Part shown: positions 1 through 52,712 of the stretch, in pieces | How the letters are laid out: each line of letters opens with the position of its first letter | Numbering within the stretch: position 1 is the stretch's first letter | Source: Oscillospiraceae bacterium | Lineage (GTDB): Bacteria > Bacillota > Clostridia > Oscillospirales > Oscillospiraceae | Length of the DNA: 64,000 nt | Direction of reading: 5' to 3' | Assembly (NCBI GenBank): GCA_017412765.1 | Contig: JAFPWN010000047.1 | Location: 62,001 to 126,000 of the forward strand | The notes under the pieces: generated by a model | Told to the model about the DNA's origin: nothing | Seen by the model: only the letters and a program-made list of their open reading frames with translations | The model's database searches: none | Position numbers and translations under genes: made by a program

Positions 1-224
1 CAGTTCTGATCTACGCTAACGAGGAAATAGTCTGGTACAGAAACGGCGAGAGAGTTCCGGAGAGCGAGCTGAATAAGAGCGACGCGATAGTCGAGGCGTA
101 CTCGGGGATCGCGGACGAGATCACCTACACTCTTACGGAGCGCGGAGAAAACGAAGCGGAACGGCTGAAAGTCAGCGTAAAGCTGAAGCATTTCGGCGTG
201 ATCGAATGGCACGAGGGAATCTGA
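1..224 (+). CDS. C-terminal end of an unidentified protein upstream of the pilus genes (5' truncated by window)
   Basis: An open frame enters from the left edge (first full codon at base 3) and stops with TGA at 222-224, giving about 73 C-terminal residues. The tail is charged and beta-rich, ending in HFGVIEWHEGI, with no membrane segment. It sits 28 bp before a prepilin-peptidase homologue and reads in the same direction, so it is probably part of the pilus operon. The alternating hydrophobic pattern could fit the globular head of a minor prepilin or a PilX-like protein. That is inference from position only; no family is recognised. Confidence 0.6.
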   Translation, partial: VLIYANEEIVWYRNGERVPESELNKSDAIVEAYSGIADEITYTLTERGENEAERLKVSVKLKHFGVIEWHEGI

Positions 225-252: not shown

Positions 253-1026
253 ATGGAACTCGTCTATATAATTGCTACTCTCATAGCGGGTCTGCTTGTG
301 GGAGGACTGTTGAATGAAATGATATACCGCCTGCCTTCGGGGGAGATACCGTTCCCGAGGCGGTGCCGGGAGTGCGGCAAAGCGTATTCACTGAGCGATT
401 ATCTGAGCGTTGTCGCGGGGATAAGCGGCAGGAACCGCTGTGATAAATGCGGCGCCCTGAGAAAGCGCAGAGAGGCGATTATCGAGTTGGCGAACGCCTT
501 TCTGTGGCTGCTGAGCTTTCTGACGTTCAGAAATTCGACAATAGGACATCTGTTTATATCCTTTGCGGCAATCTCGACTTACATCTGTATCGGATTTATA
601 GAATATGACGGAAAGAAGCTGCCCGGGTGGATTTACCTGTTCCTGCTCGCGCTCGGAATTCTCGATATATTCTGCAACGGAGAGCTTGAAATAAAAGAGA
701 GAATAATCGGAGCGCTGCTCGGCGGAGGCTTTTTCGCGCTGAGCTACGCTGTGTGCTATATCCTTCTGAAAAAAGAGGGACTTGGCTGGAGCGACGTTAA
801 GCTCATGGCGGTCAGCGGATTCCTTATGGGCTGGCAGGCGAGCTGTATGACAATCATCTTCGGCACGCTTGTCGCGGCGGTTATTCTTGCCGTTGTGTCG
901 ATGAGAAAAGGAAACAGAAATAAGGAATACCCTTTCTCCGCGTTCATTTCGATCGGCGCGATAGTGTCGATGATGTACGGAGAAGCGATGCTGAGAGCGT
1001 ATATTCGGTTATTCTCAATTTTTTGA
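253..1026 (+). CDS. Prepilin-peptidase (A24) homologue with altered catalytic motifs
   Basis: This 257-residue polytopic membrane protein has the layout of type IV prepilin peptidases, which cut the leader of prepilins and N-methylate the new end. It has the N-terminal GGLLNEMIYRLP segment, two zinc-type CxxC pairs (Cys38/41 and Cys63/66) and hydrophobic helices after them. The first active-site segment reads IEYDGKKLP: the position of the first catalytic Asp, seven residues before Pro124, is Glu117. The second motif, normally GxGD, reads GWSD (Asp181 kept, Gly to Ser). An intact paralogue at 17669 carries ADLEAYLVP and GGGD. The enzyme may therefore be inactive, of altered specificity, or only a methylase or scaffold. 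It starts with ATG behind GAAGAGG and is followed 20 bp later by pilC. Confidence 0.85.
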   Translation: MELVYIIATLIAGLLVGGLLNEMIYRLPSGEIPFPRRCRECGKAYSLSDYLSVVAGISGRNRCDKCGALRKRREAIIELANAFLWLLSFLTFRNSTIGHLFISFAAISTYICIGFIEYDGKKLPGWIYLFLLALGILDIFCNGELEIKERIIGALLGGGFFALSYAVCYILLKKEGLGWSDVKLMAVSGFLMGWQASCMTIIFGTLVAAVILAVVSMRKGNRNKEYPFSAFISIGAIVSMMYGEAMLRAYIRLFSIF

Positions 1027-1046: not shown

Positions 1047-2258
1047 TTGAAAAAATACAGTTACGTTGCGGTAAATCTGAACAGAAAACAGTTTACCGGA
1101 AGCTTCCTTGCGGAGAGCGAGGACGATCTGCGCCGCAAGCTCTCACAGCAGGGCTTGTATCTTGTAAGCGCGAAGCCAGTGTCGAATAAATCGCCGCAGG
1201 CGTCGTTCTTCTCATTGAGCAGCAAGGTCTCTCTATCTGAGCTTACGACCTTCTGCCGGCAGTTTGCTATAATGATAAACGTCGGCATATCCGTAGTGGA
1301 CAGCCTTAATATGCTTCAGCAGCAGAAGTTTTCAGGGCTGATGAAAAAGGTCCTCTACCTCGTTGCGGAGGACGTGCAGTCCGGACTTATGCTCTCTGAG
1401 GCGATGGAAAAGCACAAAAAAATATTTCCCGAGTTTTTCAGAAGCATGGTGTTTGTAGGCGAGCAGAGCGGCTCGCTGGACACTGTACTGACGAACGTCG
1501 CGGATTACTATGAAAAGAGCGAACAGCTGAGAAAGAAGATCAAGAGCGCGATGAGCTATCCTATTCTGCTGCTTGCGCTTACGATAGCGCTTGTCGGACT
1601 TATGGTGCTCTACGTTATCCCGACCTTCAAGAGCGCGCTTTCGACGATGGATCTGGAGATGCCGGCGCTGACGATGGCAATCTTCAACATGAGCGACTTC
1701 GTTATCGAAAACTGGCAGAATATAGCGCTCTACGTGATAGTGGCGGTCGCGCTCTTTATCGGAATAGGAAAGACGAAGCCGGGAAAGTATCTCTACGATA
1801 CGTTTCTCGTCAAGGTACCGCCGTTTGCAAAGTTCACAAGCTACAACGTAGCGTCCAAATTTTCGAGGTCTTTCGGACTCCTCCTTTACAGCGGCATGGA
1901 TATAGTTCAGTCGCTGGAGCTTATAACTAATCTTCTGGGCAACAAAAACGTGGAAAAGAGATTCGCACTTGCCGTCATCGACATAAAAAAGGGCATGAAC
2001 ATGACGATGGCTTTTGAGGCGTACAAGCTGTTCCCACAGCTTCTTATGCAGATGATATCGGTCGGTGAGAGAACCGGCGCAATGGACGAGGTGCTTATGA
2101 ATTCGAGCCGACACTTCGACGAGCTGACCGAGAACGCGCTGAACGCGATAACGAGCCTTATCCAGCCTGTTCTGCTCGTATTCATGGGCGGAGCGATCGG
2201 AGTAATGTTCCTTGCCGTTTATTCACCGATCATTACGATTATGGAAGGTATTCTGTAA
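1047..2258 (+). CDS. pilC: Type IV pilus inner-membrane platform protein PilC/GspF
   Basis: The 403-residue protein is the polytopic platform on which the PilB and PilT motors act. It has two T2SSF domains (about 67-190 and 265-395), each starting with an FCRQFA or FSRSFG type segment, and three membrane helices near 171-191, 225-245 and 372-395. The GEQSGSLD and GERTGAMD motifs, typical of the two repeats, are present. An N-terminal extension of about 60 residues resembles the usual PilC N-domain. The start is TTG at 1047 with GCGAGGTAG just upstream; it follows the preceding peptidase homologue by 20 bp, and pilB begins one base after its stop. Length and motifs are normal for the family. 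Confidence 0.95.
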   Translation: MKKYSYVAVNLNRKQFTGSFLAESEDDLRRKLSQQGLYLVSAKPVSNKSPQASFFSLSSKVSLSELTTFCRQFAIMINVGISVVDSLNMLQQQKFSGLMKKVLYLVAEDVQSGLMLSEAMEKHKKIFPEFFRSMVFVGEQSGSLDTVLTNVADYYEKSEQLRKKIKSAMSYPILLLALTIALVGLMVLYVIPTFKSALSTMDLEMPALTMAIFNMSDFVIENWQNIALYVIVAVALFIGIGKTKPGKYLYDTFLVKVPPFAKFTSYNVASKFSRSFGLLLYSGMDIVQSLELITNLLGNKNVEKRFALAVIDIKKGMNMTMAFEAYKLFPQLLMQMISVGERTGAMDEVLMNSSRHFDELTENALNAITSLIQPVLLVFMGGAIGVMFLAVYSPIITIMEGIL

Positions 2259-2259
2259 T

Positions 2260-3954
2260 ATGAATATAAATTATGAAGCACTGCAATTTTTCATTCTGAA
2301 AAAAGTCATCAAGAGAAAGGACGCCAAAGCCGTTCTCGACGAATGCGAAAGACTCAATATGTCAGCCGAGCAGTATCTTGTCGCCAAGGATATTGCCCTG
2401 CCTAATCAGGCTATGGCTGCCATGGGCGAGCTGTACAATCTTCCTAATATCGAGCTGGATATGCTCGAGATCAACAGATCGCTTGTGGACAAGTTCGGCC
2501 TTGCGTTCTTAAGGCGGCATAAGATTATACCCGTGAGCATAGACAGGGACGGAGTGCTTCTCATAGCTACCGGAAAGCCTATGGATCCCATCGCCATATC
2601 GAATATAGCGGTACTTTATGACGGAAAAATGGACTTTGTCTACGTTCCGCAGGTGCAGATAGACATCTACATTGACGCGATAGTGGCGGTGCAGTCCACT
2701 TCCGCGGCTCTGGACGTTATCAAAAAGGATCAGGATGACGAGATCCTCAACAAAATAAAGGCGGCAAACGAGGCAAACGACGCCGACGCTTCCGTTATCA
2801 ATACTCCCGCTGTCAGACTAGTCGACTCCTTCATTAAGGAAGCGATACCATACCGGGCGAGCGATATCCATATCGAGCCGTCGGAAACTACGGTTCGGGT
2901 GAGATACCGCATCGACGGCGATCTGCTGACGAGAGCGGAGTTCCCGATGGATTCTTATCCTGCGATAGTATCGCGCCTTAAGATACTTGCGGGACTGAAC
3001 GTCGCGGAGACAAGAACGCCGCAGGACGGACGTATCAGCATGGTGGTCAACGGAACGCCGTACGATTTCCGTGTTTCGACGCTTCCGATGATCTACGGCG
3101 AAAAGTTCGTTATCCGAATTCTTGATAAAAGCTCGTTCCGCCTTACAAGAGAAGATCTCGGCTTCTCTGAGGCGAACAACGAGATCATCGACAAGACCCT
3201 CGCGGCGCCTCACGGCATCATTCTGCTGTGCGGGCCAACCGGATCCGGTAAGTCAACTACGCTCTACACCTTCCTTAAAGAGCTGAATACCACAAAGGTC
3301 AATATCGTAACGGTAGAGGACCCTGTCGAATATACGCTTAACGGCATAAACCAGGTACAGGTCAATCCGAAGGCAGACCTGACGTTCGCAAACGCGATAA
3401 GGTCTATTCTTCGTCAGGACCCGGATATAGTCATGATCGGAGAGATCCGCGATGAGGAAACCGCGCAGATCGCTATCCGAGCGGCGATCACCGGACACCT
3501 TGTTCTCAGCACCATACATACTAACGACGCGCCGAGCTCGGTCTCGCGTCTTGTTGAAATGGGCGCTTCCAACTACCTTGTCGGAGACGCGCTTGTCGCG
3601 GTCATAGCTCAGCGACTTGTAAAGAGACTGTGCCCCGTGTGCAAGAAGAGGGGAAAAACGAATCCGAAGGAGATGGCGCTTCTCAATCTGAAGGAGCCTG
3701 TCAGTATATGCAGACCTTTCGGCTGCCAGTTCTGCAACGGAACCGGCTATAAGGGAAGAATGGCTGTCCACGAGATCATGTACGTTAACGAGGGACTCAA
3801 GGAAATGATAAGCGACCCCGACTTTACCGTTGAGGAGCTGCGCAGTTACAGTAAGGAGCACGGAATGGTCCCGCTTTGGGACGCGTGCAGAGAATCGGTT
3901 TTGAAGGGTCAGACAAGTCTTCCGGAGCTTATGAAGCTGACAATCGAGGGATAA
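2260..3954 (+). CDS. pilB: Type IV pilus assembly ATPase PilB/GspE
   Basis: This 564-residue hexameric extension motor powers pilus polymerisation. An N-terminal MshEN/T2SSE-N domain (about 1-150) precedes the ATPase core. Walker A is GPTGSGKSTTLY (from residue 325), the Asp box is TVEDPVEY, Walker B is DPDIVMIGEIRDEET and the His box is ITGHLVLSTIHTNDA. Four C-terminal cysteines (CPVC and CQFC groups) form the zinc knuckle typical of PilB. The frame is open further upstream inside pilC, but ATG 2260, one base after the pilC stop with GGAAGG before it, is the sensible start. All catalytic elements look intact. Confidence 0.96.
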   Translation: MNINYEALQFFILKKVIKRKDAKAVLDECERLNMSAEQYLVAKDIALPNQAMAAMGELYNLPNIELDMLEINRSLVDKFGLAFLRRHKIIPVSIDRDGVLLIATGKPMDPIAISNIAVLYDGKMDFVYVPQVQIDIYIDAIVAVQSTSAALDVIKKDQDDEILNKIKAANEANDADASVINTPAVRLVDSFIKEAIPYRASDIHIEPSETTVRVRYRIDGDLLTRAEFPMDSYPAIVSRLKILAGLNVAETRTPQDGRISMVVNGTPYDFRVSTLPMIYGEKFVIRILDKSSFRLTREDLGFSEANNEIIDKTLAAPHGIILLCGPTGSGKSTTLYTFLKELNTTKVNIVTVEDPVEYTLNGINQVQVNPKADLTFANAIRSILRQDPDIVMIGEIRDEETAQIAIRAAITGHLVLSTIHTNDAPSSVSRLVEMGASNYLVGDALVAVIAQRLVKRLCPVCKKRGKTNPKEMALLNLKEPVSICRPFGCQFCNGTGYKGRMAVHEIMYVNEGLKEMISDPDFTVEELRSYSKEHGMVPLWDACRESVLKGQTSLPELMKLTIEG

Positions 3955-3971
3955 AAAGGGAGAGAAGAGCA

Positions 3972-6947
3972 TTGAAAAAGGTACACCGTCTAATCGCCGT
4001 GCTGCTTATCGCCGCGCTTTTGAGCTTGAATCTTACCGCTTTTGCGGCAGATGAAGCGGCGTCGAACGACGTAGTGTTCGTTGTGGACTGCAGCGGCTCC
4101 ATGAGAAAAGAGGACGCTCAGTATGCCTCAAGGGATATTTATCTGCAATTTCTGGAGAAATGCGACAGGGATAATACGAGCGTCGGCTTAGTCTGCTTTA
4201 CAAACCTGCTCGAATCAAGCTCCGATAAGCTCTATGCTCTCGGAGAAGAGGAAGGCCTTGCATCGGCAAAAGAGGAAGGCAAAAAGATTATATATCCATC
4301 AAGAGATACGGATATTGCTCTCGGACTTCGTGAGGCGATGCGCCTTCTGGACGAGGGAAAGGGCGAGAGAAAACTCATCGTCTTTATCGGCGACGGTGTG
4401 ACCGATCTTCCGAACGGCCCGAGAACGGTTGCCGAATCCGAAAGGGAGCTTGAAGAGCTACTGAAAAGAGCGCAGGACGAAAACACTGTCATATACTCTG
4501 TCGGCATGAACGGCGACGGCAACGCGAACACCTCGACGATCGAGATGCTTGCAAGTGAAACGGGTGGAATGAACTATACCGTTCACAGCGCCGGTGAAGC
4601 TGAGAATGTCGTATCTGACATCGTTCGGCTTATAAACGATGCTGAACCGATTGTTATTGATCATAATGAGGATTCCGACTCTCGCAGAGAGAAGAAGAGC
4701 TATTCATTTGACGAGCTATACGGCAGTATTCTCCAGAAGTTTGCCGAGATAGAGCCGATCGGAAGCGTTCAGACGATAGAAAACAGCTTCGCTGATGCGA
4801 TGATACAGATTCCCGAGATAACGAACACTGTTCCGGAAGAAGCTGATATGGAGAGTGCCTCAGAATCAAGCAGTGGAAACATATTTGATTTATTTCTAAG
4901 CTTCTTTCACGGTACCACAAAAAACGAGAACGAAGGCGATGTGTCCGGCCTTGAGGATATGATGGGCGGCGACGTTCCTGCTGACGAGCTTCCTGAGGGC
5001 ACGGAAGGCGCGGCTCCGGGCGTGGTACCGGGAGCTGTGCCGAGCGCGGGAAAAGTGAGCGACTACTATCTTGTCGTCAGAACGAACGGCGCGCTGAGCG
5101 GACTCAGAATATTCACAAATGAAGAGGATAAGAGGTCTGACTTCATCACCCCGGAAAACGGACTCAGCATCTACCGCCTCGGAGATTTGGGAGAAAACTG
5201 GTCAAACGAGAAGGTATATCTTGAATTTACCGGTGCCGAGGGCAGCCTCATCGAGCTTTATCTTCTGAACGCAGACTTTGTTGACGTTGTGATGGAGATA
5301 GACGCGGAGTGCGTTAAGCCGTCGCAGGCGCAGAACGTGCGGGCTTATGCCACGCTGCTCGGAGAATACAGCACAGCGCTGACGGAGCTTCTCGACGCGT
5401 CCGTAACGCTCCGTGTAATAGAGAGCGAGGAAACTGTTCCGCTCAGCGGGGAGTACGGCGAGAGCGGCTTTACGACGAAGGCTGTGCTTAACGAGGACTG
5501 CCACGTCATGCTCAACGCGGAGCTTGACATAGACGACGGCATACTTAATCCGCATCGCGTTATTGACATGAGTTACAACGTATGCGAGAATCCGGTGGCG
5601 CTGAAAAACAATGATAAGCAGAATATGTTCTTTTTCTCAAGCCTTACGGGAGGGACGCTCCTCGGAAAGACGATAAAGCTTGAGGACGTAGTGACCTACG
5701 AACCGTCAAGACAGCTTTCGGTACGCATCGACCGGGCTAAGAACATAACCTGCGACTATGACGCGGAAAAAGGCACGATAGCGCTCGGCGGAGGAAACGC
5801 CTACGAGGTCAATACTTTCTTTGTCGAGATCTCCGACGGCTTTGCCACGGTAAAGCTGCGCTGCTCGAGCGTGACGATACCGGCTATGCTGGTCATTACG
5901 ATACTGCTTGTCGTTGTGCTGATCGCGGCGATCATATTTATGGCTGCGTATAATAAAAAGCACACGAAATTTATCGGGAAGCTCTTCCTGAAGTTCCGTC
6001 TGCCCGAGAAGATGAGCGACTATGCGGTTGCTGATTCCGAGCTGATTTTCCCGTACACTTCGAGCATTTCGCTGTGGGATCTGATCGTGCTGAACAACTC
6101 GATGCACATGGCTCTCTCACAGATCATTGATAATTCTGAGCTGGAGGCAGTGGCTAAGGGCGTAATGATCGAGTCGAGATCAAAGGGCGAGATCTGGCTG
6201 AAGATAAAGCAGTCAACTCAGAGCCTCAGGATCAACGAAGAGGACTTCGGCAAGAAGAAGGACAAGCTCGTAGTGCTCGGACCTGAGGACAGCGCGACGG
6301 TGGATTTCGGCGGCGAGGGCGGCGACGTAAGGATGATCGTCTACCGCAATCCGAACACGGTGAAGTCCGAAAAAGTCGTGTTTACTGAAAAGAAGATCGC
6401 CCCGAGTCTTGATGAAAAGACCGAAAACGCCCGGCAGAAGCTCAGTGCGATCAGCGAAGAAGCGGTTGATACCGTTAAAAACGAGAAGGAAGAGAAGATC
6501 GCGGTCAGCTTCAACGAATGCGTAAACTACTATGTGTTCGCAAGCGTTCTCGGTATGCTCAAGCAGGACAGAGAGGGCAAGCACATAAGACTTTACAGGG
6601 ACACCGTTGATTTCTCACCCGTTACGCTTATTGACAGCGGTATCATAGACAACGATATCTACTATCTCGTATTCACAAAGTTCTGCACTAATCTTGACAG
6701 ACAGAGGCGCGAGAGCCTCGACAGTCAGATGCGCGCGCTGCTTGACGCCTGCGCCGCCGACGACGAAAAAGCAAAAAAGACGCAGAAGCAGGCGCAGAGC
6801 ATGATAATGAACTATACCGCCCTTCTGAACATGGTGCAGGATTCCTCGATGGAGGAGCCGGATAGCGAAAAATACGGAAAGGTAATTGAGTTCTATTCGA
6901 GCGTAATAGACGTTTGCAAGCAGCTGCTTGGCAAGCTTGACATCTGA
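3972..6947 (+). CDS. Membrane-anchored VWA-domain protein of the pilus operon
   Basis: The protein has 991 residues if begun at TTG 3972, which follows GGGAGAGAAG and directly precedes a signal peptide (KKVHRLIAVLLIAALL, cut near AFAA). A von Willebrand A domain follows, with MIDAS motif DCSGS (Asp39), the distal Thr in RDTDIALG and Asp in FIGDGVTD, so metal-dependent ligand binding looks intact. A long beta-rich extracytoplasmic region leads to one membrane helix at about 636-660 (ITILLVVVLIAAIIFM). Some 330 cytoplasmic residues end the protein, so it could pass a signal from outside to the motor side. It lies between pilB and pilT, 14 bp before pilT. The cytoplasmic domain is not recognised. 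A Gly/Pro/Val/Ala-rich linker sits near 340-390. Confidence 0.85.
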   Translation: MKKVHRLIAVLLIAALLSLNLTAFAADEAASNDVVFVVDCSGSMRKEDAQYASRDIYLQFLEKCDRDNTSVGLVCFTNLLESSSDKLYALGEEEGLASAKEEGKKIIYPSRDTDIALGLREAMRLLDEGKGERKLIVFIGDGVTDLPNGPRTVAESERELEELLKRAQDENTVIYSVGMNGDGNANTSTIEMLASETGGMNYTVHSAGEAENVVSDIVRLINDAEPIVIDHNEDSDSRREKKSYSFDELYGSILQKFAEIEPIGSVQTIENSFADAMIQIPEITNTVPEEADMESASESSSGNIFDLFLSFFHGTTKNENEGDVSGLEDMMGGDVPADELPEGTEGAAPGVVPGAVPSAGKVSDYYLVVRTNGALSGLRIFTNEEDKRSDFITPENGLSIYRLGDLGENWSNEKVYLEFTGAEGSLIELYLLNADFVDVVMEIDAECVKPSQAQNVRAYATLLGEYSTALTELLDASVTLRVIESEETVPLSGEYGESGFTTKAVLNEDCHVMLNAELDIDDGILNPHRVIDMSYNVCENPVALKNNDKQNMFFFSSLTGGTLLGKTIKLEDVVTYEPSRQLSVRIDRAKNITCDYDAEKGTIALGGGNAYEVNTFFVEISDGFATVKLRCSSVTIPAMLVITILLVVVLIAAIIFMAAYNKKHTKFIGKLFLKFRLPEKMSDYAVADSELIFPYTSSISLWDLIVLNNSMHMALSQIIDNSELEAVAKGVMIESRSKGEIWLKIKQSTQSLRINEEDFGKKKDKLVVLGPEDSATVDFGGEGGDVRMIVYRNPNTVKSEKVVFTEKKIAPSLDEKTENARQKLSAISEEAVDTVKNEKEEKIAVSFNECVNYYVFASVLGMLKQDREGKHIRLYRDTVDFSPVTLIDSGIIDNDIYYLVFTKFCTNLDRQRRESLDSQMRALLDACAADDEKAKKTQKQAQSMIMNYTALLNMVQDSSMEEPDSEKYGKVIEFYSSVIDVCKQLLGKLDI

Positions 6948-6961
6948 AAAGGAGAAAAGCA

Positions 6962-8011
6962 GTGGATATACTGAATAAACTTATCGGAGCAGCTTCGGAG
7001 GCGAAGGCTTCGGATATGCACATCAATTCGGGCAGCACGCCGATAGTGCGGCTTGACGGCGCGCTCGTCGAGCTCGGCGGAAGACCGTGGGATGAGGAAA
7101 CTGTCAGAGCTGCGGCAAACTCGCTTATGAACGAGGAGCAGCGCGAGTGGTTCGATAAAACCGGCGAGGTCGACCTCGCGGTCACTAACGGCAACGAAGC
7201 TCGAATCAGATGCAATATCTACCGGCAGATGGGAAGAACGGCGATAGCGATCCGACTTCTTCCGGTCAGCATCCCGACGCCGGAGCAGATAAACCTGCCC
7301 GAAACGATCGTTAACCTCACGAAAAAGAAAAAGGGTATCGTGCTTGTCACCGGCCCGACGGGAAGCGGAAAGAGTACGACTCTTGCGGCGCTTATCCACC
7401 ACATCAACAGAACTCAGAATAAGCACATAATAACGCTTGAGGACCCCGTTGAGTATATCCACACAAATATAAACTCCGTTATCCACCACAGACAGGTGGG
7501 CACGGATACTCAGAGCTTCGCAAGCGGAATGAGGGCGGCTCTGCGCCAGGACCCGGATATTATACTCGTCGGAGAGATGCGCGACCTCGAAACTATTTCT
7601 ACCGCTATCAGCGCCGCTGAAACGGGACACCTCGTGTTCGGAACGCTTCATACTACGAGCGCGGCGGGCGCGGTGGACAGAATCATCGACTCATACCCGG
7701 CAGATCAGCAGCAGCAGATCAGGGTCCAGGTCGCGGACGTACTCGAGGCGGTCGTAGCGCAGACTCTCGTGCCGAAAAAGAAGGGCGGAAGAGTCGGCGT
7801 TCACGAGATCATGATCGCAAATACCGCTATAAAGCAGCTCATAAGAGAGGCTAAGACTTATCAGATCAACTCGCAGATACAGCTTTCCGGCGCGTCGGGA
7901 ATGCAGCTCATGGACGAGGCGCTCCTGAGGCTCTATAAGGCGGACACGATCTCGAAGGAATACGCGCTCGCGGCGGCAAACGATAAGGTGTTGCTCGGCT
8001 CGAGAATGTAA
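6962..8011 (+). CDS. pilT: Type IV pilus retraction ATPase PilT
   Basis: A 349-residue retraction motor that depolymerises the pilus and gives twitching motility or DNA uptake. An N-terminal PAS-like domain is followed by Walker A GPTGSGKSTTLAAL (from residue 131), TLEDPVEY, Walker B DPDIILVGEMRD and the His box TGHLVFGTLHTTSA. The C-terminal retraction-specific motif is present as AIKQLIREAK, followed by GMQLMDEAL. There is no tetracysteine knuckle, which separates it from PilB. The start is GTG at 6962 behind AAAAGGAGAAAAGC, 14 bp after the VWA gene, so the two are probably translated from one message. Length and motifs are normal. Confidence 0.96.
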   Translation: MDILNKLIGAASEAKASDMHINSGSTPIVRLDGALVELGGRPWDEETVRAAANSLMNEEQREWFDKTGEVDLAVTNGNEARIRCNIYRQMGRTAIAIRLLPVSIPTPEQINLPETIVNLTKKKKGIVLVTGPTGSGKSTTLAALIHHINRTQNKHIITLEDPVEYIHTNINSVIHHRQVGTDTQSFASGMRAALRQDPDIILVGEMRDLETISTAISAAETGHLVFGTLHTTSAAGAVDRIIDSYPADQQQQIRVQVADVLEAVVAQTLVPKKKGGRVGVHEIMIANTAIKQLIREAKTYQINSQIQLSGASGMQLMDEALLRLYKADTISKEYALAAANDKVLLGSRM

Positions 8012-8053: not shown

Positions 8054-11000
8054 ATGGCTGTGAATAATATGATCGGAAAAAAGAATAAGGGCTTCACAGT
8101 CATAGAGCTTGTGGTGGTTATAGCCGTTATGGCTATAATGATGACGGCGGCAATTCCGTCTCTTGACAGAGTATTGAACGATTCGCAGCGCAACACGCTC
8201 GTAATGAACGTAGAAACGCTGAACGCCGTAATGGAGAATGCCGACGAAACGTCGTTTGAGGGCGCGTTCGGTGAGCTGTCAAAGCTCTACGCGGATTCAG
8301 CGGACGCCAGCACGTCGGGTGAAATAAAACGCTTGTCGGAGCTTATCGGAATAAACGGCAAGCTCAATTCCGCTGTTTTTTATGACAGCGAGGACGGAAA
8401 GTGGATATATCTCCATACGGAGATAAACGAGAGCGTAGCGGAATCGGTAAAGAAAGACTATGGGCAGGCGCGCTATTTTCTTCCGGTCAGATCTGCCGCG
8501 GAGATCCTCGAATACAGGGATACCGGCATAAGCATCGCGCTTTTGGCTGATATCGACGCGGCAAATGAGCGCGGACTTCTTGACGAAAACGGCAAGCTTG
8601 CTTTAGCCGGAGGACTCGCGCTCAACGGTCACGTGCTGAGCGGAGTGAACGCACTCTCGCTTACCGGCGAGGGCGCGGCGCTCGAGATTATCTCGGGCGC
8701 GCTTGTCGGAGCTGAGGGCGGCCGAACCGACGTTTATTTCGGCGTTGATCTGAAAGAGGCAGGCATAAAATCATCTTCAGATGAGGCTCAGAGCCTCGGA
8801 GAGGTTCGCGCCGAGAGAGTCGAAAAGCTCACTGTGACGGGACTAATCTCCGTCAAAAGCCTGAGGGCTGACAATTCGGGAGTGGTAATAGCGCCCGGCG
8901 CGAGAGTAGTAACGGAAAACGGCGCTTATGTGACAGGGGGCGAGGCTTTCGCAAAGACCGGCTGGATAACTTACAGAGGCTCGCAGGCCGCTTATCTGAG
9001 ATTTTCGGGCGGCGAGCTTGTCGCAAATAATGCCGAGGGCGAAGGACTTTTCTATTGCGGGCCGATAGGCTTCAGAGCGACAAACGGCAGTCTTGTTCCT
9101 GAGGCGATAAAGCTGCGCAAGGCAACCATGACACCGGACGAGGACGGCGAGATTTTTGAGCTTAATAACGGCAGATTCAGCGCTCTTGACGGAGCGCTCG
9201 GCTACAAGGTTTCGGCTGACGGCAGTATTGCCCTTGAGAGCGTGAGGCTCGACGAAAGCCTGACGCTTGACGGAAACGGCGATACCTATGCCGTCTATAC
9301 CCTCGACGGCAGAACGGTTATCGCGGATAAGCGCAAGGCAGTTATTTACAGCGCGAGCTCGATCGGCACTCTGACGCCGTATTGCGTCGCGGTAAATGAC
9401 GATCTGACAATTCCGTCTGTGAGCCTTGAAGCGTTCGCGGCGGGAAGCGGCGCGGCGCCGGAGGGATGCGCGCTATTATACACGCAGTACGACGGCGAAA
9501 CGCTCTATACAAAGAGCGCCGTGGGCGAGTACGAAAAAACAGGCTACTATTTCGTATGGGGAGAGAGCAGAATCAGTACGTCGCAGTACCACACCGTAAC
9601 GCTCAAGCTCTACGATAATATTTCAAACAAGGTGAGCGTAAAGCACGGAGGGGCGCTCCTGCTTCCGAAGCCCGTCCGTCAGGGCTACGTGTTCGGCGGC
9701 TGGTACGTTAAGGACAAGCCTGAGGAGAAGCTTGCGGCGGGCAGCGTTTACACAGGCGTCAATGACGCGCTGGAGCTTATTGCCGCGTGGACGGCGGTCA
9801 CAAATGAGATGACGCTCAGCTTTAACGGCAGGATCCGGGATAATTTTACTGTTTCCGTCGGCGGACTTGAATTTCTTATTACTGACGGAAGAAGCGTGTT
9901 CCTCAACAGGGTAGTGATCGAGGGCAGAGAGTATTATGCGCTATATGAGAACACGAGCACCGTGGACGTGGACGGAAAGGAGATCAACACCGCGGAATAC
10001 TGGTGCAGGAGAGAGGCATACGTCGTTGACCTCGGGGACGAGAAAACTTATTCTACGGAGATCTATGAGATCTACCGCAGGGATACCGGAGAGATGGTGC
10101 TGAGCGCGGTGCTTCCCGAGGTGCGCGCGACCGATACCGGGCTGACCGTAGTAATGCGCGGTCAGAGCGCGAGCGTAGTGCTTCCGCGTGCGGACGCCGA
10201 GGACGACCTCACCTTTGAAAGATGGGAGACAGACACGAGAGTCAGCTATGCCGCGGGCGACACGCTGATCATCGAATCCTCCGACAGCGCCCCGGTAGAG
10301 ATCACGCTGAATGCAAAGCTTCTTGAAAACGACCGTTCGAGCCTCATGCTCAGCGTGGCGCTCAGCGATGAGAAGAGCTATGAGGTAACTGACAGAAAGT
10401 ACGGTGTAGTCGGCGGAAAGCTGAGCCTTATAAGTGCCGATATAAAGGCAGGACTCAGCTATTATGTCCTATCCAAAAGCGGCAACGAGTGGATGGTTCA
10501 GCCGGCGATAGACGAAGCAGCTGAGATCAGCGGAAAAACTCTCAGAATAGAAGACGGTGAGACGGTCATCGAGGCGATGGTCACGCTGAGCGATGACAAG
10601 ACGCAGCTCGGAGTTTCGTTTGATAAGCTTCTGTTCGGCGGCAAAGAGATAGCCGTAAGCGACGGCAGAATGTCCGGCGGTGAGATAACCGGCAGCCTCA
10701 GCACTACGTCCGGAGCGGTTACGTTTGGTTATGACCTGACGAGCCGGATGAACAGCGCTATCGCCTATAAGCTTAAGAGTGTAGTCAGAAACGGCGTTGA
10801 GCAGACGGTAACCGACGATTCAATCGTGATCGAGAGCACCGATAAGGGAAAGATCTATACGATAGACAACCCCGAAAGACCCGGCGCCTCTACACTGAGG
10901 CTCACGGCAGTCATGCTTCCGGTGGATATTAACAGATTCTGGCTGAACGTAACGCCGCAGAACAAGGCGTCTCTCGACTTCCATTCAGAGGATGAGGAGC

Positions 11001-12400
11001 TCGGCGATTACAGAGTCACGTTCGGTGTATTGGATAATGATACCGGCGACGACTATACGCTCAGACCGGAATACGTCACAAAGAACGGAACTATGAGCCT
11101 TGTCAATAACGGCATCGTGACCATAAACGGCAGGGATTACGATATTAACGCCCTGATCGGAGCGCAGGCGGTAAGCGGTGGCGAGACCGGAGAAGGCGGT
11201 GAAGGCGGAGAAGGCGGCGAAACGGGTGAGACCGGCGAGACCGGAAACGAGGGCGGCATACTGCCCGGAACGCACGTTCACACCTTCGGTTTCTTTACGA
11301 CAGAGATAAACGGGGTTGAGGTAACGGAGTACGGCTGCGTTGAGTGCAAGGAGGCATCCGTCAACAGATCAATCGTACTTTACAAAGATGAAAGGCTGAC
11401 AAGTCCGTTCTACGTACCCGAAGGCGCGGTTTACACTCTTGACCTTAACGGTCACAACCTCATCACAAGCGGCGACGCGATATATAACAAGGGTACGCTG
11501 ACGCTGAAAAGCGACGGCTTCAGCTTCCCGGTACTTGAAACAGATGAAAACAAAAATCTTCTTTTCACTGAAGGTGAAATGAAGGGTTACGTTATCGTAA
11601 ATAACGGAGGGGCGGAGAAAGAAGCCTCAAATTCCAACGGAGTTATAAACTGGGGAACGCTCTATATGGAGGCGGTCGGAGTTGCGGTTTCGGACACCTA
11701 CGGAAACGCGGTAGTCAACGCAGATGGCGGAACGCTTGTAGTCGAAAACGCGGTGATTCTCAATACGGGACTCGGAAACGGCGTTTTCGCAGCCGGCGGA
11801 GACGTCGCGCTGAACGACGGCACCGTGATCTGGTCAACGACCTACGGCTTTGCGGTCTTTGTGTACGGCGATTCAAAGGTCGCGCTGAACGGCGGCTCAT
11901 ACTATTCGACGGTCGGATTCCCGCTGTGCCTTTGCGGAGGACAGACGAGGATCGGAAAATACTGCGTTGTGGACAGAGAAGATGACGAAAGCTACGCTGA
12001 CTACATAGAGATGGACGGTATGTCCGGCGAGATATACTGGCTCGCGGGCGGACTTGATCTCACGCAGCTGAGCGAGAAAAAATTCACCTATGCCATGCTG
12101 CCAGAGGGCATAACCGGTTATTATCCGGGCGGCGACGAGGTAAAAAGCTGGCTCTTCCCGGAGGACTTCGAGATCTACGTATCAAGAAGCGGCTCCGGCG
12201 AGATGGAGTACAGAAGCTGGTCAACGCAGATCTTTAACGCGGGTGAGTGGAATTCCGACGATCCGGAATTCGTGTTCCACGCCGCGGCTTCCTCGGACTA
12301 TGAATCGGCGGTGAGAATACTCAAGACACAGAGCACGGAGGGCAGCGAGGAGACGGATCTGCTCGTGCCACAGGTAGAAAGCTACGGCTTTTTTGACTGA
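8054..12400 (+). CDS. Giant type IV prepilin with multidomain C-terminal passenger
   Basis: The N-terminus is a class III-type prepilin: MAVNNMIGKKNKG, then FTVIELVVVIAVMAIMM. Cleavage is expected after Gly13, and Glu at mature position 5 is present. The usual pilin is 120-200 residues; this one has 1448. The passenger contains long beta-rich stretches, an InlB/Listeria-Bacteroides-type repeat at about 515-580 (RQGYVFGGWY ... LIAAWTA), a related segment near 715-760, a Gly/Glu/Thr linker near 1042-1068, and a C-terminal part with LDLNGHN, NKGTLTL and NADGGTL segments suggesting a right-handed beta-helix. It resembles the known class of modular pilins and is probably a surface adhesin at the pilus tip or along the fibre. 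It starts with ATG after GGGAGTGGAG; a second in-frame ATG lies at residue 6. No frameshift is seen. Confidence 0.9.
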   Translation: MAVNNMIGKKNKGFTVIELVVVIAVMAIMMTAAIPSLDRVLNDSQRNTLVMNVETLNAVMENADETSFEGAFGELSKLYADSADASTSGEIKRLSELIGINGKLNSAVFYDSEDGKWIYLHTEINESVAESVKKDYGQARYFLPVRSAAEILEYRDTGISIALLADIDAANERGLLDENGKLALAGGLALNGHVLSGVNALSLTGEGAALEIISGALVGAEGGRTDVYFGVDLKEAGIKSSSDEAQSLGEVRAERVEKLTVTGLISVKSLRADNSGVVIAPGARVVTENGAYVTGGEAFAKTGWITYRGSQAAYLRFSGGELVANNAEGEGLFYCGPIGFRATNGSLVPEAIKLRKATMTPDEDGEIFELNNGRFSALDGALGYKVSADGSIALESVRLDESLTLDGNGDTYAVYTLDGRTVIADKRKAVIYSASSIGTLTPYCVAVNDDLTIPSVSLEAFAAGSGAAPEGCALLYTQYDGETLYTKSAVGEYEKTGYYFVWGESRISTSQYHTVTLKLYDNISNKVSVKHGGALLLPKPVRQGYVFGGWYVKDKPEEKLAAGSVYTGVNDALELIAAWTAVTNEMTLSFNGRIRDNFTVSVGGLEFLITDGRSVFLNRVVIEGREYYALYENTSTVDVDGKEINTAEYWCRREAYVVDLGDEKTYSTEIYEIYRRDTGEMVLSAVLPEVRATDTGLTVVMRGQSASVVLPRADAEDDLTFERWETDTRVSYAAGDTLIIESSDSAPVEITLNAKLLENDRSSLMLSVALSDEKSYEVTDRKYGVVGGKLSLISADIKAGLSYYVLSKSGNEWMVQPAIDEAAEISGKTLRIEDGETVIEAMVTLSDDKTQLGVSFDKLLFGGKEIAVSDGRMSGGEITGSLSTTSGAVTFGYDLTSRMNSAIAYKLKSVVRNGVEQTVTDDSIVIESTDKGKIYTIDNPERPGASTLRLTAVMLPVDINRFWLNVTPQNKASLDFHSEDEELGDYRVTFGVLDNDTGDDYTLRPEYVTKNGTMSLVNNGIVTINGRDYDINALIGAQAVSGGETGEGGEGGEGGETGETGETGNEGGILPGTHVHTFGFFTTEINGVEVTEYGCVECKEASVNRSIVLYKDERLTSPFYVPEGAVYTLDLNGHNLITSGDAIYNKGTLTLKSDGFSFPVLETDENKNLLFTEGEMKGYVIVNNGGAEKEASNSNGVINWGTLYMEAVGVAVSDTYGNAVVNADGGTLVVENAVILNTGLGNGVFAAGGDVALNDGTVIWSTTYGFAVFVYGDSKVALNGGSYYSTVGFPLCLCGGQTRIGKYCVVDREDDESYADYIEMDGMSGEIYWLAGGLDLTQLSEKKFTYAMLPEGITGYYPGGDEVKSWLFPEDFEIYVSRSGSGEMEYRSWSTQIFNAGEWNSDDPEFVFHAAASSDYESAVRILKTQSTEGSEETDLLVPQVESYGFFD

Positions 12401-12424: not shown

Positions 12425-15400
12425 ATGGGTTTATTCGACTTTTTGAAAGGGCTTGGCGGCGGAAAATCTGCGGAAGACAAGCGCATGGAAAAGCTGCGCC
12501 AGAAGATGCCCGGTGAAAAGCAGGAGGAGAAGCAGGAGGATGCGGAACCCGCGAAAAAACCGCTGATGCTCTTTGCGATAGAAGATGATGAGCCCGCCGA
12601 AGAAGCCGCCCCCGTTATCGAGAAGAAACCCGCGGAGGAGAAAACGGAGCCGGACGGCTTTAACGCGGAAAGCTACGCGATGCCGAAGCTCGACCTTAGC
12701 AAATTCAGCGCTTTCAGGGATGACGATGAGGGCGCGCCTGTGCAGAATGAGGTCGAGGAGGAGGCGAACTCTTTGCCCGAGCCGGAAAAAGGACCCGAGC
12801 CGGAGGCTGAGAAGGAGATAGACGTTAAATTCTTTGACTTCGGCGTTCCGGAACCGGAAAAGCCGGCGGTGGAAGAGAAAAAGGTCAGACAGGAGCCTCA
12901 GAAGGAGCCTCAGAAGGAGGAAAAATCAAAACTATTCGGCGGCTTCGGCTTCCTCTTTAAGAAGGCTCAGCAGAAGACTGAGGAGCCGGAGAAGCAGGAG
13001 ATAAAAGAAGTCAAGTCGGCGGGAACAGATGAGAAATCCGACGAGCCCGCCGTCGATACGCGCACTGATATGGAGCGCCTTGCCGATCAGATCCAGGAGA
13101 GGTATCCGATGGGCATCAAGAGCCTATATTCTCTCCAGAGCGATATGCAGTTCGGAGTCGAGATCAGAAGTATAACGCGCAACCAGGAGAAGAGAGAGGA
13201 GCTCAAGAGGCTTCTCAGCGAGAGAAAGCTTTTGCAGACGGCTGAGAGCGAGCAGGGCGAGAGCGACGGCGTTACCGAGGTAACTGCGGAGCTTTTCGAG
13301 CAGTTTATGAACAGACTCGTCAGCGATAACCAGGGAATGCTCTTTTCGTTTACACAGGTCGTCGACAGCGCGTTCTTCCGAAATACGCTTCCGCTTTACG
13401 AGAATTTCTGCCGCGAGAACTACGACATGGCGCTCGAGGACTATCTCATAGTCCGCAGGAAGCTCGCCGCGGATAGAGCGAAGCTTGAGGAGCTCGGTCA
13501 GCTTAAGGAATTTGCCGTGAAAGGCGCGGAGGGCTCGCTTCTTGAGGATTACGCGCGCAGGAATTCCATCCCGTTTGAGTTCGAGCCGACGGCTGAGGGG
13601 CATATCCGCAGACTGCAAAGAATAGTGCGCGTTACCGAAACCGAGAAGGGCAACAACTGCTATGCCGCGCTGAAATTGCGGATTTTCGAGACTGTCACGC
13701 TCCTGCGCGAGCCGGAGGGGAGGGTCGCCGTATATAATTGCGACAACGAGCTCTGCGGATATATCGATCCCGAGGATCAGCAGTGGGTCACAACGGCGAT
13801 GGAGCAGGCGAAGATAACGCTCTCAGAGCCTGTTGTGGTCGAGCACTCCTTCGTTTCCGATGCGGGCAAGTTCCGCAGAAAGACGATAGTTTCACTCTAT
13901 TTCAAAGTTGAGTTTGACGAGCGGAAGTTTGTCCTCTACGGGCTTACGCCGTTCGACTCGCCCCGCTACTTCGCTCCCGCGCCGAAAGAGCCGCAGCGCA
14001 GTCCTGAGGGGTACTATATAATGAATCTCGATAACTCTCCGGAGGTGATCGAGGTAAACGACAAGCGCATCGAGGGCCTTTCCCTGCGCACCTGCGACGA
14101 TCTGAGCGACTGGGAGTGGACCGTTACGCCGGAGAAGACCGTACAGCTCAAGGGTTACAGCGGCGAGGAAACAAAGCTGACGCTTCCGTCATCCATCGAC
14201 TCTTACCCCGTAACGGAGATAGGCAAGGACGCGTTCTCCGGCAACGGAAAGATCGTAAGCGTAAGAATACCGGGCAGCATAAAGCTTTTGCGCGAGAACG
14301 CGTTCCGCGGCTGCGCCGAGCTTGTGAGCGTTTCGATCGGAGAGGGCTGCGAGCAGCTTGACAGAAACGTTTTTTCCGACTGCCCGAAGCTCACTAAGTG
14401 CGTAAGCCCGAAGAGCCTTGTCGAGATAACGGACAATACGCCGTTTTCTAATACTCCGTGGCGCGATGAAACGAGTGAGGAATTCCTGCTCCTCGGCAGC
14501 ATCCTGCTCTCCTGGCAGGGCAGAGGCTACCGTATGCGTATCCCGGGCGGAGTCACCGTCTACGCGAGGGGCGCGGCGTTCGGAAATCCGAATCTGCGCG
14601 AGGTCGTTTTCCCGGACGGCATGGTGAAGATCAGCGAGCAGGCGTTCTACCCGGGCAATAAGCAGCTCAAGAAGATAACGGTTCCGCTGAGCGTGCGCAG
14701 GATAGGTGAAAATGCCTTCAGAGGCACGAAATGGCTGACAGATCACACGGACGAGCTCCTTGTCATTAACGATCTGCTGCTTCGTTATCGCGGCGAGAGC
14801 AATACCGTCCATCTTGACGAGTCGATCCACGTTATCTGCGACGGCGCGTTCAAGGGCTGCGGGGTTGAAAGATTGTGGCTTGAGGACACTCTTACCGACG
14901 TCTGCGACGGCGCGTTCTACAAGTGCGAGGCGCTGAGAACGGTATCGGTTGGTAATGGACTCAGGTATATCGGCGCGTCGGCGTTTGCGCTCTGCAAGAG
15001 CCTGACGGGCTTCTATCTGCCGGAAAAGATCGAGTATATCGGTGAAAAGGCATTCTGGGGCTGCGCGATGCTCGAAGAGGTGCAATATCCGAAAAGGCTT
15101 ATCGCGCATGGCAAGGACGCGTTCATTGGCACGCCGCATATCACAAAAAGCGGCGAATTTGCTATCGCGGCTGGCAGACTTCTTAAGTACACCGGCAACG
15201 CCTCGTCCGTTTCGGTGCCCGAGGGTGTAACTGAGATAGCTCCGAGAGTGTTTGCCGGCATCAGAAATCTGGTTGAGATCACACTGCCTGACAGCCTTCT
15301 GAAGATCGGCAGGGAGGCGTTTGCCGACTGCGTATGCCTTTACGAGGTCAAGGGCGGCTCAAAGGTTGCGGAGATCGAGAACGGCGCGTTCAAAAACTGC

Positions 15401-16114
15401 CGTTCGCTTCTGAAGATCGCGCTGCCCGCGGAGCTTAAAGTAATCGGCTCGGAAGCGTTTCTCGATACCGACGTCAGGAGCGTCACGCTGCCGAAGGACC
15501 TGAGATACGTCGGCGCCGGAGCGTTCGGCGGAAAGAGCGAGCTGACGGTTTACGATCAGCTCGGCGTAGGCGATTTCGGAACAGGAAAGCTTTCGCTTGC
15601 TGCCGTTCTCCTCAAGACGAAAAACGGCGTTCCGTACTATGACGCCGATACGACAGAGTTTGCGCCCATTACGATAACCGTCAGAGCGGCGCTGAGCGGC
15701 TCGGTGAAGTACAGCTTCTACTTCGACGGAAGAAACGAGAGCCGCGCATACAGAGAGCTTATCCTGAACTGCTGGGGCAGAAAGAGCGAGATGAGCTGGG
15801 CGGAGTTTGACCGGACGTTCATGAAAATAAGAAACCCCGAAACGAGACTCAAAAACGCCTACGACAGACTTAAGAGCTCGCCCGCGCCCGAAGAGGGAGC
15901 GAAGGACTTTTACAAGAGCTATCTCGGCAGAGTTTTAGAGATACCGGACAGCGAACAGTGCGCGGCGAAATATATCTTCGGGCGCGACGATAAGAATATG
16001 CTGGCTCTTATTATGAAGCTCGGCACCGTTGCGGACGAGAAGAGAGAAAGACTTAGAGAGATGGCGAAGGAACTCGGCGCCGAGAAATGTGAAAAGCTGC
16101 TCACAAAAGTTTGA
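12425..16114 (+). CDS. BspA-type leucine-rich-repeat protein without signal peptide
   Basis: This is a 1229-residue protein. It starts MGLFDFLKGLGGGKS, a possible amphipathic membrane-touching helix, then has an acidic Pro/Glu/Lys-rich low-complexity region to about residue 215. A mixed globular part follows to about 580. Then come many LRR_5 (BspA-like) repeats to about 1040, recognisable by repeated G.DAF...L..V.IP spacing (for example IGKDAFSGNGKIVSVRIPG). The last 190 residues are helical. BspA repeats are normally found on secreted or surface proteins, but no signal peptide, lipobox or membrane helix is visible, so a cytoplasmic or membrane-associated location is inferred. The gene lies 24 bp after the giant prepilin with GGAGG before ATG. 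Its role in pilus function is unknown. Confidence 0.85.
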   Translation: MGLFDFLKGLGGGKSAEDKRMEKLRQKMPGEKQEEKQEDAEPAKKPLMLFAIEDDEPAEEAAPVIEKKPAEEKTEPDGFNAESYAMPKLDLSKFSAFRDDDEGAPVQNEVEEEANSLPEPEKGPEPEAEKEIDVKFFDFGVPEPEKPAVEEKKVRQEPQKEPQKEEKSKLFGGFGFLFKKAQQKTEEPEKQEIKEVKSAGTDEKSDEPAVDTRTDMERLADQIQERYPMGIKSLYSLQSDMQFGVEIRSITRNQEKREELKRLLSERKLLQTAESEQGESDGVTEVTAELFEQFMNRLVSDNQGMLFSFTQVVDSAFFRNTLPLYENFCRENYDMALEDYLIVRRKLAADRAKLEELGQLKEFAVKGAEGSLLEDYARRNSIPFEFEPTAEGHIRRLQRIVRVTETEKGNNCYAALKLRIFETVTLLREPEGRVAVYNCDNELCGYIDPEDQQWVTTAMEQAKITLSEPVVVEHSFVSDAGKFRRKTIVSLYFKVEFDERKFVLYGLTPFDSPRYFAPAPKEPQRSPEGYYIMNLDNSPEVIEVNDKRIEGLSLRTCDDLSDWEWTVTPEKTVQLKGYSGEETKLTLPSSIDSYPVTEIGKDAFSGNGKIVSVRIPGSIKLLRENAFRGCAELVSVSIGEGCEQLDRNVFSDCPKLTKCVSPKSLVEITDNTPFSNTPWRDETSEEFLLLGSILLSWQGRGYRMRIPGGVTVYARGAAFGNPNLREVVFPDGMVKISEQAFYPGNKQLKKITVPLSVRRIGENAFRGTKWLTDHTDELLVINDLLLRYRGESNTVHLDESIHVICDGAFKGCGVERLWLEDTLTDVCDGAFYKCEALRTVSVGNGLRYIGASAFALCKSLTGFYLPEKIEYIGEKAFWGCAMLEEVQYPKRLIAHGKDAFIGTPHITKSGEFAIAAGRLLKYTGNASSVSVPEGVTEIAPRVFAGIRNLVEITLPDSLLKIGREAFADCVCLYEVKGGSKVAEIENGAFKNCRSLLKIALPAELKVIGSEAFLDTDVRSVTLPKDLRYVGAGAFGGKSELTVYDQLGVGDFGTGKLSLAAVLLKTKNGVPYYDADTTEFAPITITVRAALSGSVKYSFYFDGRNESRAYRELILNCWGRKSEMSWAEFDRTFMKIRNPETRLKNAYDRLKSSPAPEEGAKDFYKSYLGRVLEIPDSEQCAAKYIFGRDDKNMLALIMKLGTVADEKRERLREMAKELGAEKCEKLLTKV

Positions 16115-16128
16115 TTGGGAGAATAAAG

Positions 16129-17658
16129 ATGAAGATGATCGTTCACAACAGACTGGAATTTAACTGTGAACTGAATGAATACCGCGAGATAAGCGCGGCG
16201 TTTGCGCGCGACGCGGTGGACTGGAGCTTCACGGTAGGCGAGAGAGTTTTTGACGATGAGAAGCGCAGCCTTTCTTTCAACACGTGGGAAGATGGCGACA
16301 TAATCTCGGACGGCAGCCTTGTTAAGCTCACCCTTATGTTCCCACGGGTCATTTTCAGCTATACCGCCTGGCCTGACGGACAGCCGGAGCCGGAGAGCGC
16401 GTCGCAGGTGTGGTGCGCCGGTCAGAACGTGACTGAGCTTACGCCTGTCATGCGCAATTCCGTGCGCGACAGAGCGTATATCGAGTACTGCAAGCGCTTC
16501 CTCACCGGCGACACCAGATCGGGCGAGGGCTATGCGCACAAGGCTATTATAATGGATAACGAGGAGCGCACGGCGGCAAGCTGGGGCGAAAACCGCTTCG
16601 GAGAGTGCGAGGTCTATTACTGGGACAGCCTGAAATCGCTCGGCTGCGGAGATTTTCACACCGTTGCGGCAAGAAGCGACGGCAGAACGGTCGCCACAGG
16701 CAGCAACGCGAACGGACAGTGCGACGTGGAGGCGTTCAGAAACGCTGATACCATCTCCTGCGGACGCTACCATACGGCGGCGCTCAAGAAGATCGGCGCG
16801 GTGCTCCTTGCGTCTACGGACGAGCGCTTTACTCAGTGCGCTACCTGGCGCGGCATAGTAGCTTTGCGCAGCGTCGGTGATACGATCATCGGGATCAAGC
16901 GCGACGGCAACGTGCTTATCGACGGCGATCAGATGTGTCCCTGCACGCGCGATGACATCAAGGCAATGTTCCCGGATATGAAGCTTACGTTCCCCGCGGG
17001 GTTCAAGTCGCTTGCGACGAAGATCAGCGCAGAGGATAAGCGCAAGGAGCGCGCTCTCGAGAACGCGGGGGTAAAAAAGCGCAGAAAAGCTCCCGCGAGC
17101 GCCGTGGAGCTTGAGGAAAACGGCCGTATATCTGACAAAAATAAAAAGCCGCGTCCCGTAAAGCTTTCGGAACCGGCATATACCTTCACTTTCAGCTACC
17201 GCGAGGAGCTTGAAAAGCTTGAGAGCGAATTCTGCGGCGAGGAGCTTGTCCTGCCGTATTTCTGCTACGACGCGGCGAAGTATCTCGACAAGAACGGCGT
17301 GCCGCCGGTGGGAGATAACTGCAAGCGCGTGGACGAGGAGACCGTCCGCAGGCAGATAAAGGAATTTTTCATGGTGTGCAGGCTATGCACGAATAAGAAC
17401 TTTCTTGCAGTGATCGCCGAAAATGCCGCGAAGAGCGCAAACGGCAAGCTCATAAAGAACAGAGCGCAGCGCATAACTACGTTCAGACTCACCCACGGCG
17501 AGGATTTTTACGAGCTTTGCGCGAGAAACGTGGACCCGGAAACGATAGATATCTCCGTAGCGCCGGTCGAGTGCACGCTGAAAAACTGCCGCGGGATCAC
17601 AAACCAGCCGGACAGCAGGGCAGTGCTCGAGGAAAACTGCTCAGTGAAGCTTGACTGA
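16129..17658 (+). CDS. RCC1-like repeat protein of the pilus operon
   Basis: ATG 16129 follows TTGGGAGA and gives 509 residues; the same frame is open slightly further upstream but would overlap the preceding stop. Residues of about 130-290 show RCC1/BLIP-II-like repeats: SWGENRFGECEV, LGCGDFHTVAARSDG, ATGSNANGQCDV, ISCGRYHTAALK. Such repeats usually fold into a beta-propeller that mediates protein contacts. The N-terminal part and the Cys-containing C-terminal half are not recognised. No signal peptide or membrane helix is seen. The gene follows the LRR gene by 14 bp and its stop lies 10 bp before the intact prepilin peptidase, so these are likely one transcript. A function in pilus assembly or regulation is guessed from position. 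Confidence 0.8.
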   Translation: MKMIVHNRLEFNCELNEYREISAAFARDAVDWSFTVGERVFDDEKRSLSFNTWEDGDIISDGSLVKLTLMFPRVIFSYTAWPDGQPEPESASQVWCAGQNVTELTPVMRNSVRDRAYIEYCKRFLTGDTRSGEGYAHKAIIMDNEERTAASWGENRFGECEVYYWDSLKSLGCGDFHTVAARSDGRTVATGSNANGQCDVEAFRNADTISCGRYHTAALKKIGAVLLASTDERFTQCATWRGIVALRSVGDTIIGIKRDGNVLIDGDQMCPCTRDDIKAMFPDMKLTFPAGFKSLATKISAEDKRKERALENAGVKKRRKAPASAVELEENGRISDKNKKPRPVKLSEPAYTFTFSYREELEKLESEFCGEELVLPYFCYDAAKYLDKNGVPPVGDNCKRVDEETVRRQIKEFFMVCRLCTNKNFLAVIAENAAKSANGKLIKNRAQRITTFRLTHGEDFYELCARNVDPETIDISVAPVECTLKNCRGITNQPDSRAVLEENCSVKLD

Positions 17659-17668
17659 GGAGACGGGC

Positions 17669-38142: not shown

Positions 38143-38348
38143 ACGGCTCGTCCGTTCATTTCAATGCGTCGGCAAAGCCTCCGCATCGAACATATTTTGC
38201 ACTCTCGGAGCGCAAAATATGACGCCTGCGGGCCTGTGTGCGACGTGAAGGGGCCTCTCGGCCGGCCCCTTCACAGAACCCCGCCTCCTTTGTCCAACGC
38301 TTTTTCGTTTTGTCTGCAGTCTGAAATGAACGGCTCGTCCGTTCATTT
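38137..38348 (+). mobile_element. Copy B of the dispersed element with duplicated stem-loop
   Basis: Core 38162-38323 (162 bp) starts CAATGCGTCG and ends CTGCAGTCTG. The flanking 25-bp hairpin (10-bp stem AAATGAACGG / CCGTTCATTT, loop CTCGT) is repeated exactly at 38137-38161 and 38324-38348. The hairpin sequence is unrelated to those at copies A and C. The right copy has the T run of a terminator. Internal hairpins are as in copy A, with one stem change (GCACTC against GAGCGC). Confidence 0.85.
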
Positions 38349-38373
38349 TTACTATATGGAGGGGAGTGAAACG

Positions 38374-52699: not shown

Positions 52700-52712
52700 G
52701 ATTATATCACAA

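Follow-up and report, generated by a model that had tools for sequence, protein, structure and literature searches.

Introduction

Prepilin peptidases of the PilD/PulO/ComC type (family A24) combine a PF06750 domain with a PF01478 domain. In the excerpted text of the papers cited here by PMC identifier, two aspartates are described as critical for cleavage (PMC10191384), and four cysteines bind zinc, which methylation requires and cleavage does not (PMC10191384; PMC3584216). A glycine and a basic residue adjoining the third cysteine of PilD are reported to contribute to methylation (PMC3584216); a literature search for this glycine by residue number returned no paper. A presenilin-like protease was slowed by a Gly-to-Ala exchange before the GxGD aspartate (PMC2947513), and presenilin D385E is described as dominant negative, D385 being the second aspartate and not the first (PMC1513133). 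Exchange of prepilin peptidases between systems has also been described (PMC6668835). Our literature search found no paper on an inactive or pseudoenzyme prepilin peptidase.

The window analysed here is a 64,000-nucleotide stretch of the genome of an Oscillospiraceae bacterium (GCA_017412765.1; contig JAFPWN010000047.1, positions 62,001 to 126,000, forward strand). It encodes two PilD-type proteins on the forward strand, A24front (positions 253-1026) and A24end (17651-18463). A24front resembles the PilD/PulO/ComC family in its domains, CxxC pairs, helix plan, Asp181 and place next to pilC and pilB, but differs from it in a Glu for the first catalytic Asp, GWSD for GxGD, FSA for FGP, and Asn61.

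Results

The A24front gene starts with ATG and encodes 257 amino acids in an intact frame without internal stop. Its product scores above both Pfam gathering cut-offs, with 45.2 bits for PF06750 (A24_N_bact; cut-off 23) and 43.7 bits for PF01478 (Peptidase_A24; cut-off 26.5). With both domains above cut-off and an operon context common to its orthologues (described below), A24front is an A24 prepilin peptidase, or PilD, by descent.

The initial annotation had pointed to changes in both catalytic motifs, and the codons and the alignment bear this out. The position of the first catalytic Asp holds Glu117 (GAA, 601-603), and residues 178-181 read GWSD, Ser180 (AGC, 790-792) replacing the second Gly of GxGD; A24front thus lacks both the first catalytic Asp and the GxGD signature of an active prepilin peptidase. 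One catalytic acid of the two is replaced, and Asp181 is unchanged. The C-terminal FGP motif reads FSA, with Ala230 for the proline. The CxxC pairs and the membrane plan, described in the same annotation as kept, are indeed present: the segment at 364-450 contains all four zinc-binding cysteines (C38 and C41, C63 and C66), and the helix plan is backed by hydropathy and by an AlphaFold2 model. Lys183 is retained as well. Within this Cys-rich segment, Asn61 (AAC, 433-435) replaces the Gly that precedes the third Cys by two residues, so that Asn61-Arg62-Cys63 retains the basic residue of the pair that the excerpted PilD study links to methylation, and the glycine is gone (PMC3584216).

We then compared A24front with its relatives. 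After removal of two partial or non-homologous frames (L003 and L062), 111 relatives were aligned, of which 107 were full length and four failed the full-length rule. These 107 are a biased family sample, having been picked by their match to A24front or A24end, and they include near-duplicates (e.g. L005/L006, L021/L022/L029 and L099/L101/L162) as well as A24end itself. Column 117 was Asp in 106 of the 107 and Glu in one (L171), and columns 180 and 181 were Gly and Asp, respectively, in all 107. Column 119 varied freely, with Asp in 44/107, which rules out Asp119 as a regular catalytic residue. A total of 27 columns were conserved in at least 90% of the relatives, column 61 (Gly) among them. 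A24front keeps 16 of these, including the four Cys, Asp181 and Lys183, and is changed at 11 (S18G, F19L, S36R, P52S, S55A, G61N, Y74E, L110Y, D117E, G180S and P230A), with changes at the first Asp, in GxGD, in the C-terminal FGP and in the methylase domain. Two relatives have no Cys domain; the remaining 105 two-domain proteins departed from the 27 columns 0-6 times each (51 not at all, 34 once, 11 twice and nine three or more times, several of the last being truncated or damaged frames). The motif departures of A24front therefore exceed chance.

An AlphaFold2 model of A24front, built from six sequences, was folded (pLDDT 84.0, pTM 0.82), with long helices at residues 2-25, 72-91, 97-118, 125-142, 147-172, 179-192, 194-217 and 228-256. 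Helix 97-118 has Glu117 close to its end, and helix 179-192 has Asp181 close to its start. The peptidase half (model residues 98-252, to which the match is limited) aligned over 145 residues at 4.0 A with FlaK (3S0X), an archaeal GxGD protease, and may share its fold. FlaK was the first row in VIA-align with a Z of 8.2, the next being 5.2; for helical bundles, Z values below about 13 can be non-specific. In Foldseek, FlaK stood at rank 21 with an E of 3.6, and sequence searches of the PDB gave zinc-finger matches only, through the Cys-rich segment, with FlaK not among them. FlaK differs from A24front in being described, in the excerpted text of PMC4985597, as an active GxGD enzyme. A scan of the genome contigs gave one weak locus.

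A24front had been placed at the front of its operon. This was incorrect: the contig extends 62 kb upstream of the window, and among the genes read in 20 kb of it, the pilus cluster begins about 12 kb upstream. The impression arose because the window edge cuts the cluster, so that the window starts inside the operon. The upstream part begins with three prepilins of 930, 236 and 358 aa (leaders GFTIIELV, GFTIIEMV and GFTLVEVV), followed by a 451-aa gene, a 997-aa prepilin (GFTILEVV) and a 1018-aa protein (GYALITTV, without Glu5), the last of which begins outside the window and ends within it (1-224, forward strand). A Pfam search with the 451-aa gene gave no match, and naming it PilM would be a guess; the 1018-aa protein is PilX/GspK-like in our own reading.

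Downstream of A24front, all on the forward strand, follow pilC (T2SSF; 1047-2258), pilB (T2SSE; 2212-3954, with the true start probably at about 2252-2305), a gene for a 1023-aa VWA-domain protein (3876-6947 as the listed frame, whose 5' end overlaps pilB), pilT (6962-8011), a gene for a giant 1448-aa prepilin (8054-12400), genes for an LRR and an RCC1-repeat protein and, at the cluster end, A24end. The Walker A motifs of PilB and PilT are kept. The VWA-domain protein, whose gene adjoins both pilB and pilT, may serve the pilus as an adhesin or as its tip protein; it had a match at 1e-15 in three of 250 sampled family genomes, its own included. The LRR protein has 1229 aa with BspA-type leucine-rich repeats (12425-16114), and the RCC1-repeat protein has 515 aa (16111-17658); both lie within the pilus cluster.

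The giant prepilin had been suggested as a special substrate of A24front. We found no support for this, as its leader, GFTVIELV, matches those of the other cluster prepilins in type. Because these leaders are ordinary, no special enzyme is needed for it. The cluster encodes four very large pilin-like proteins, of 1448 aa (8054-12400), 930 aa (L063 8134-10926), 997 aa (L063 14178-17171) and 1018 aa (the gene ending at window position 224); three have ordinary type III leaders, and one has a leader without Glu5.

To place A24front among its orthologues, we searched 34 genomes of its genus and 250 sampled genomes of its family, where the best relatives reached at most 35% identity. Among 400 sampled family genomes, a closely similar PilB was absent from all others, the best identity there being 52%. 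Eleven loci with an A24 gene followed directly by pilC and pilB were found; they come from further families of the order and from a single family beyond it (L138, L140, L141, L142, L144, L146, L147, L148, L194, L224 and L225, with A24 proteins L099, L101, L102, L103, L105-L108, L162, L195 and L198). The pilB frame of L144 was masked in the frame listing by an opposite-strand frame and was recovered afterwards. In ten of the eleven loci, the exception being L141, the same protein of about 400 aa is encoded directly upstream of A24. Compared with the window, eight of these loci had 44-49% identity in PilC and 59-61% in PilB, against about 25-37% and 40-52%, respectively, in other pilus loci. Some of the orthologous operons carry a gene of about 910 aa after pilB; four were compared with the VWA gene of the window without a phmmer hit, ruling out that the two are the same gene.

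The eleven A24 orthologues share 29-37% identity with A24front and have pilC and pilB downstream as it does, but all of them are canonical, with Asp at 117 and GxGD. The initial annotation had described A24front as a conserved degenerate copy and had named orthologues of this kind as the result that would speak against it. The alignment for conserved Glu and Ser gave exactly this result, ruling out a conserved degenerate clade. The combination of Glu117 and GWSD was observed in one genome only. Because all eleven syntenic orthologues are canonical, the loss belongs to the lineage of the window. In a PF01478 scan of nine of the eleven orthologue genomes, eight had a single, canonical A24 protein and one (G538) had two.

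We next asked whether the neighbours of A24front had changed to a similar extent. At columns invariant among eight orthologous operons, the window departs at 31/70 in A24 (44%), 14/102 in PilC (14%) and 30/259 in PilB (12%). In the outlying operon L141, used as a control, the corresponding values were 10/80, 20/122 and 44/303. The branch lengths of the window were 1.96 for A24, 0.62 for PilC and 0.47 for PilB, compared with 0.53, 0.39 and 0.31 for L141. These results indicate that constraint was relaxed in A24front but not in the genes next to it. When a 257-codon frame was left to drift without selection to 67% identity in simulations, it stayed open in about 2% of runs and the four Cys were kept in 13%. 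Selection therefore probably acted on A24front over much of its past, a result that does not date the loss.

The genome encodes three PF01478 matches: A24front, A24end and a short TadV-like protein. A24end was confirmed as canonical, as the initial annotation had it, with Asp and GGGD, and it has its own methylase domain by Pfam. For the tree, 102 rows were used; five of the 105 two-domain proteins were left out, four as damaged or truncated (L042, L049, L055 and L057) and one (L001) because it was replaced by the whole A24end. In this tree, A24end fell into a clade of 34 peptidases from its own genus and family (SH-aLRT 100), its closest relative having 42% identity at best, and A24front grouped next to the operon orthologues (SH-aLRT 93), its terminal branch being the longest in the tree (1.79; median 0.45). 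In an AU test on a 42-row subset, A24front and A24end as sisters were rejected (p-AU 0.00014), which rules out A24front as a local or recent duplicate of A24end. The same test left two placements of A24front standing, one with the orthologues (p 0.356) and one within the clade of its own genus and family (p 0.262). As the tree alone is compatible with either ancestry, we base the orthology of A24front on gene order and on the identities of PilC and PilB, which speak for A24front as the operon's own, presumably ancestral, PilD.

Discussion

We consider it likely that A24front is the ancestral PilD of an operon of the A24-pilC-pilB type, that little or nothing remains of its two activities, and that A24end, which belongs to another lineage, matures the pilins. 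In the lineage of the window, A24front would have lost the first Asp, the GxGD Gly, the FGP proline and methylase hallmarks (S18G, F19L and G61N, among others), so that it most probably has little or no leader peptidase or N-methylase activity left. The take-over would then consist of A24end cleaving, and perhaps methylating, the prepilins of the cluster. It is from the excerpts of the family papers cited above that we infer little or no activity of A24front at either step and assign the processing to A24end. The pseudoenzyme proposed in the initial annotation thus gains support as the likeliest state, as judged from the eleven changed conserved columns with the catalytic Asp and the GxGD Gly among them. 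The observations on which this reading is built are the residue losses, the canonical orthologues, the accelerated A24front, its intact frame, its predicted fold and the presence of A24end. Against it, Glu might serve as a general acid, L171 has Glu at 117 as the sole A24 protein found in its genome, the AU test leaves room for A24front inside the own-family clade, and A24front retains its predicted fold together with the four Cys, Asp181 and Lys183.

If its catalysis is gone, A24front may be retained for another role or may be in slow decay. A stronger form of the preferred explanation, possible but less likely than not, is that A24front was retained by selection to bind, hold or deliver prepilins, or to pair with A24end or PilC. 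The intact frame is in line with this, given how rarely a neutral frame stayed open or kept its four Cys in the simulations, as are the modelled fold and the 16 conserved columns that remain. However, constraint is clearly down at the orthologue-invariant columns, the open frame could predate the loss, and since no relative has this state, conservation of a new role cannot be demonstrated. A specific version, in which A24front uses its still intact fold and zinc ribbon to bind prepilins and passes them on to a recruited A24end, so that recognition and cutting are split, seems to us rather doubtful.

It is unlikely that A24front is an active but divergent peptidase, perhaps with another substrate preference, in which a Glu117-Asp181 dyad works or Asp119 stands in for residue 117. 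A carboxylate is present at 117, Asp181 and Lys183 are kept, and in the AlphaFold2 model Glu117 and Asp181 are predicted at helix ends that face one another, the arrangement known from the family. Moreover, Glu at 117 arose independently in L171, the sole A24 protein found in genome G116. Nevertheless, Gly180 is invariant among the full-length relatives, the Asp at column 119 is found in a minority of them, further motifs beyond the dyad are lost, and no prepilin leader in the cluster is unusual. G116 is also outside the 99/250 genomes with a PilT/PilB match at 1e-30, so L171 may be a decaying orphan.

L171 (also L192; G116:C4:78605-79375) combines Glu in place of the first catalytic Asp with a Lys that replaces the leading Gly of GxGD. 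Its genome is of the same family as that of A24front, and it is like A24front in its Glu at column 117 and in the Asp at +2, but differs in that it belongs to the A24end-type clade and keeps Gly180, having lost the first Gly of GxGD instead. No pilus genes were recognised near it among the longest frames of about 22 kb, a listing that hid the A24 gene itself and maybe others. L171 may be a further orphan in which the residue is being lost, or it may hint that Glu is functional.

The remaining explanations fare worse. A methylase-only A24front, with a dead peptidase half and an N-terminal half that methylates pilins cut by A24end, had been offered in the initial annotation and appears very improbable: the four Cys and the basic Arg62 before the third Cys are kept, but Asn61 replaces the neighbouring glycine tied to methylation in the excerpted PilD study (PMC3584216), the S18, F19, S36, P52, S55 and Y74 hallmarks of the N-domain are changed, and A24end already has a methylase domain. 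That the two codons stem from an error of sequencing or assembly can practically be dismissed, because, even though a single base would suffice for each change and the genome is in 74 contigs, changes at 11 conserved and 31 orthologue-invariant columns in one intact frame are not read errors.

Together, A24front and A24end look like a gene displacement caught mid-course, with an old peptidase stripped of its hallmarks beside an enzyme of another lineage. If A24front keeps a role, it would separate substrate recognition from catalysis and provide a naturally inactive GxGD protease. If it has none, the locus would be a case of plain replacement, and an A24 Pfam match would not imply an active peptidase.

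Two further observations were made in this genome. The TadV-like third A24 protein is encoded in a tad-type locus on contig C50 of this genome (L065 540-1031), and its GxGD motif reads PGGD, with the first Gly changed. Elsewhere in the window, the listed frames at 38164-39219 and 52668-52967 share a near-identical peptide starting with MRRQSLRIEHIL, which suggests a dispersed DNA repeat.
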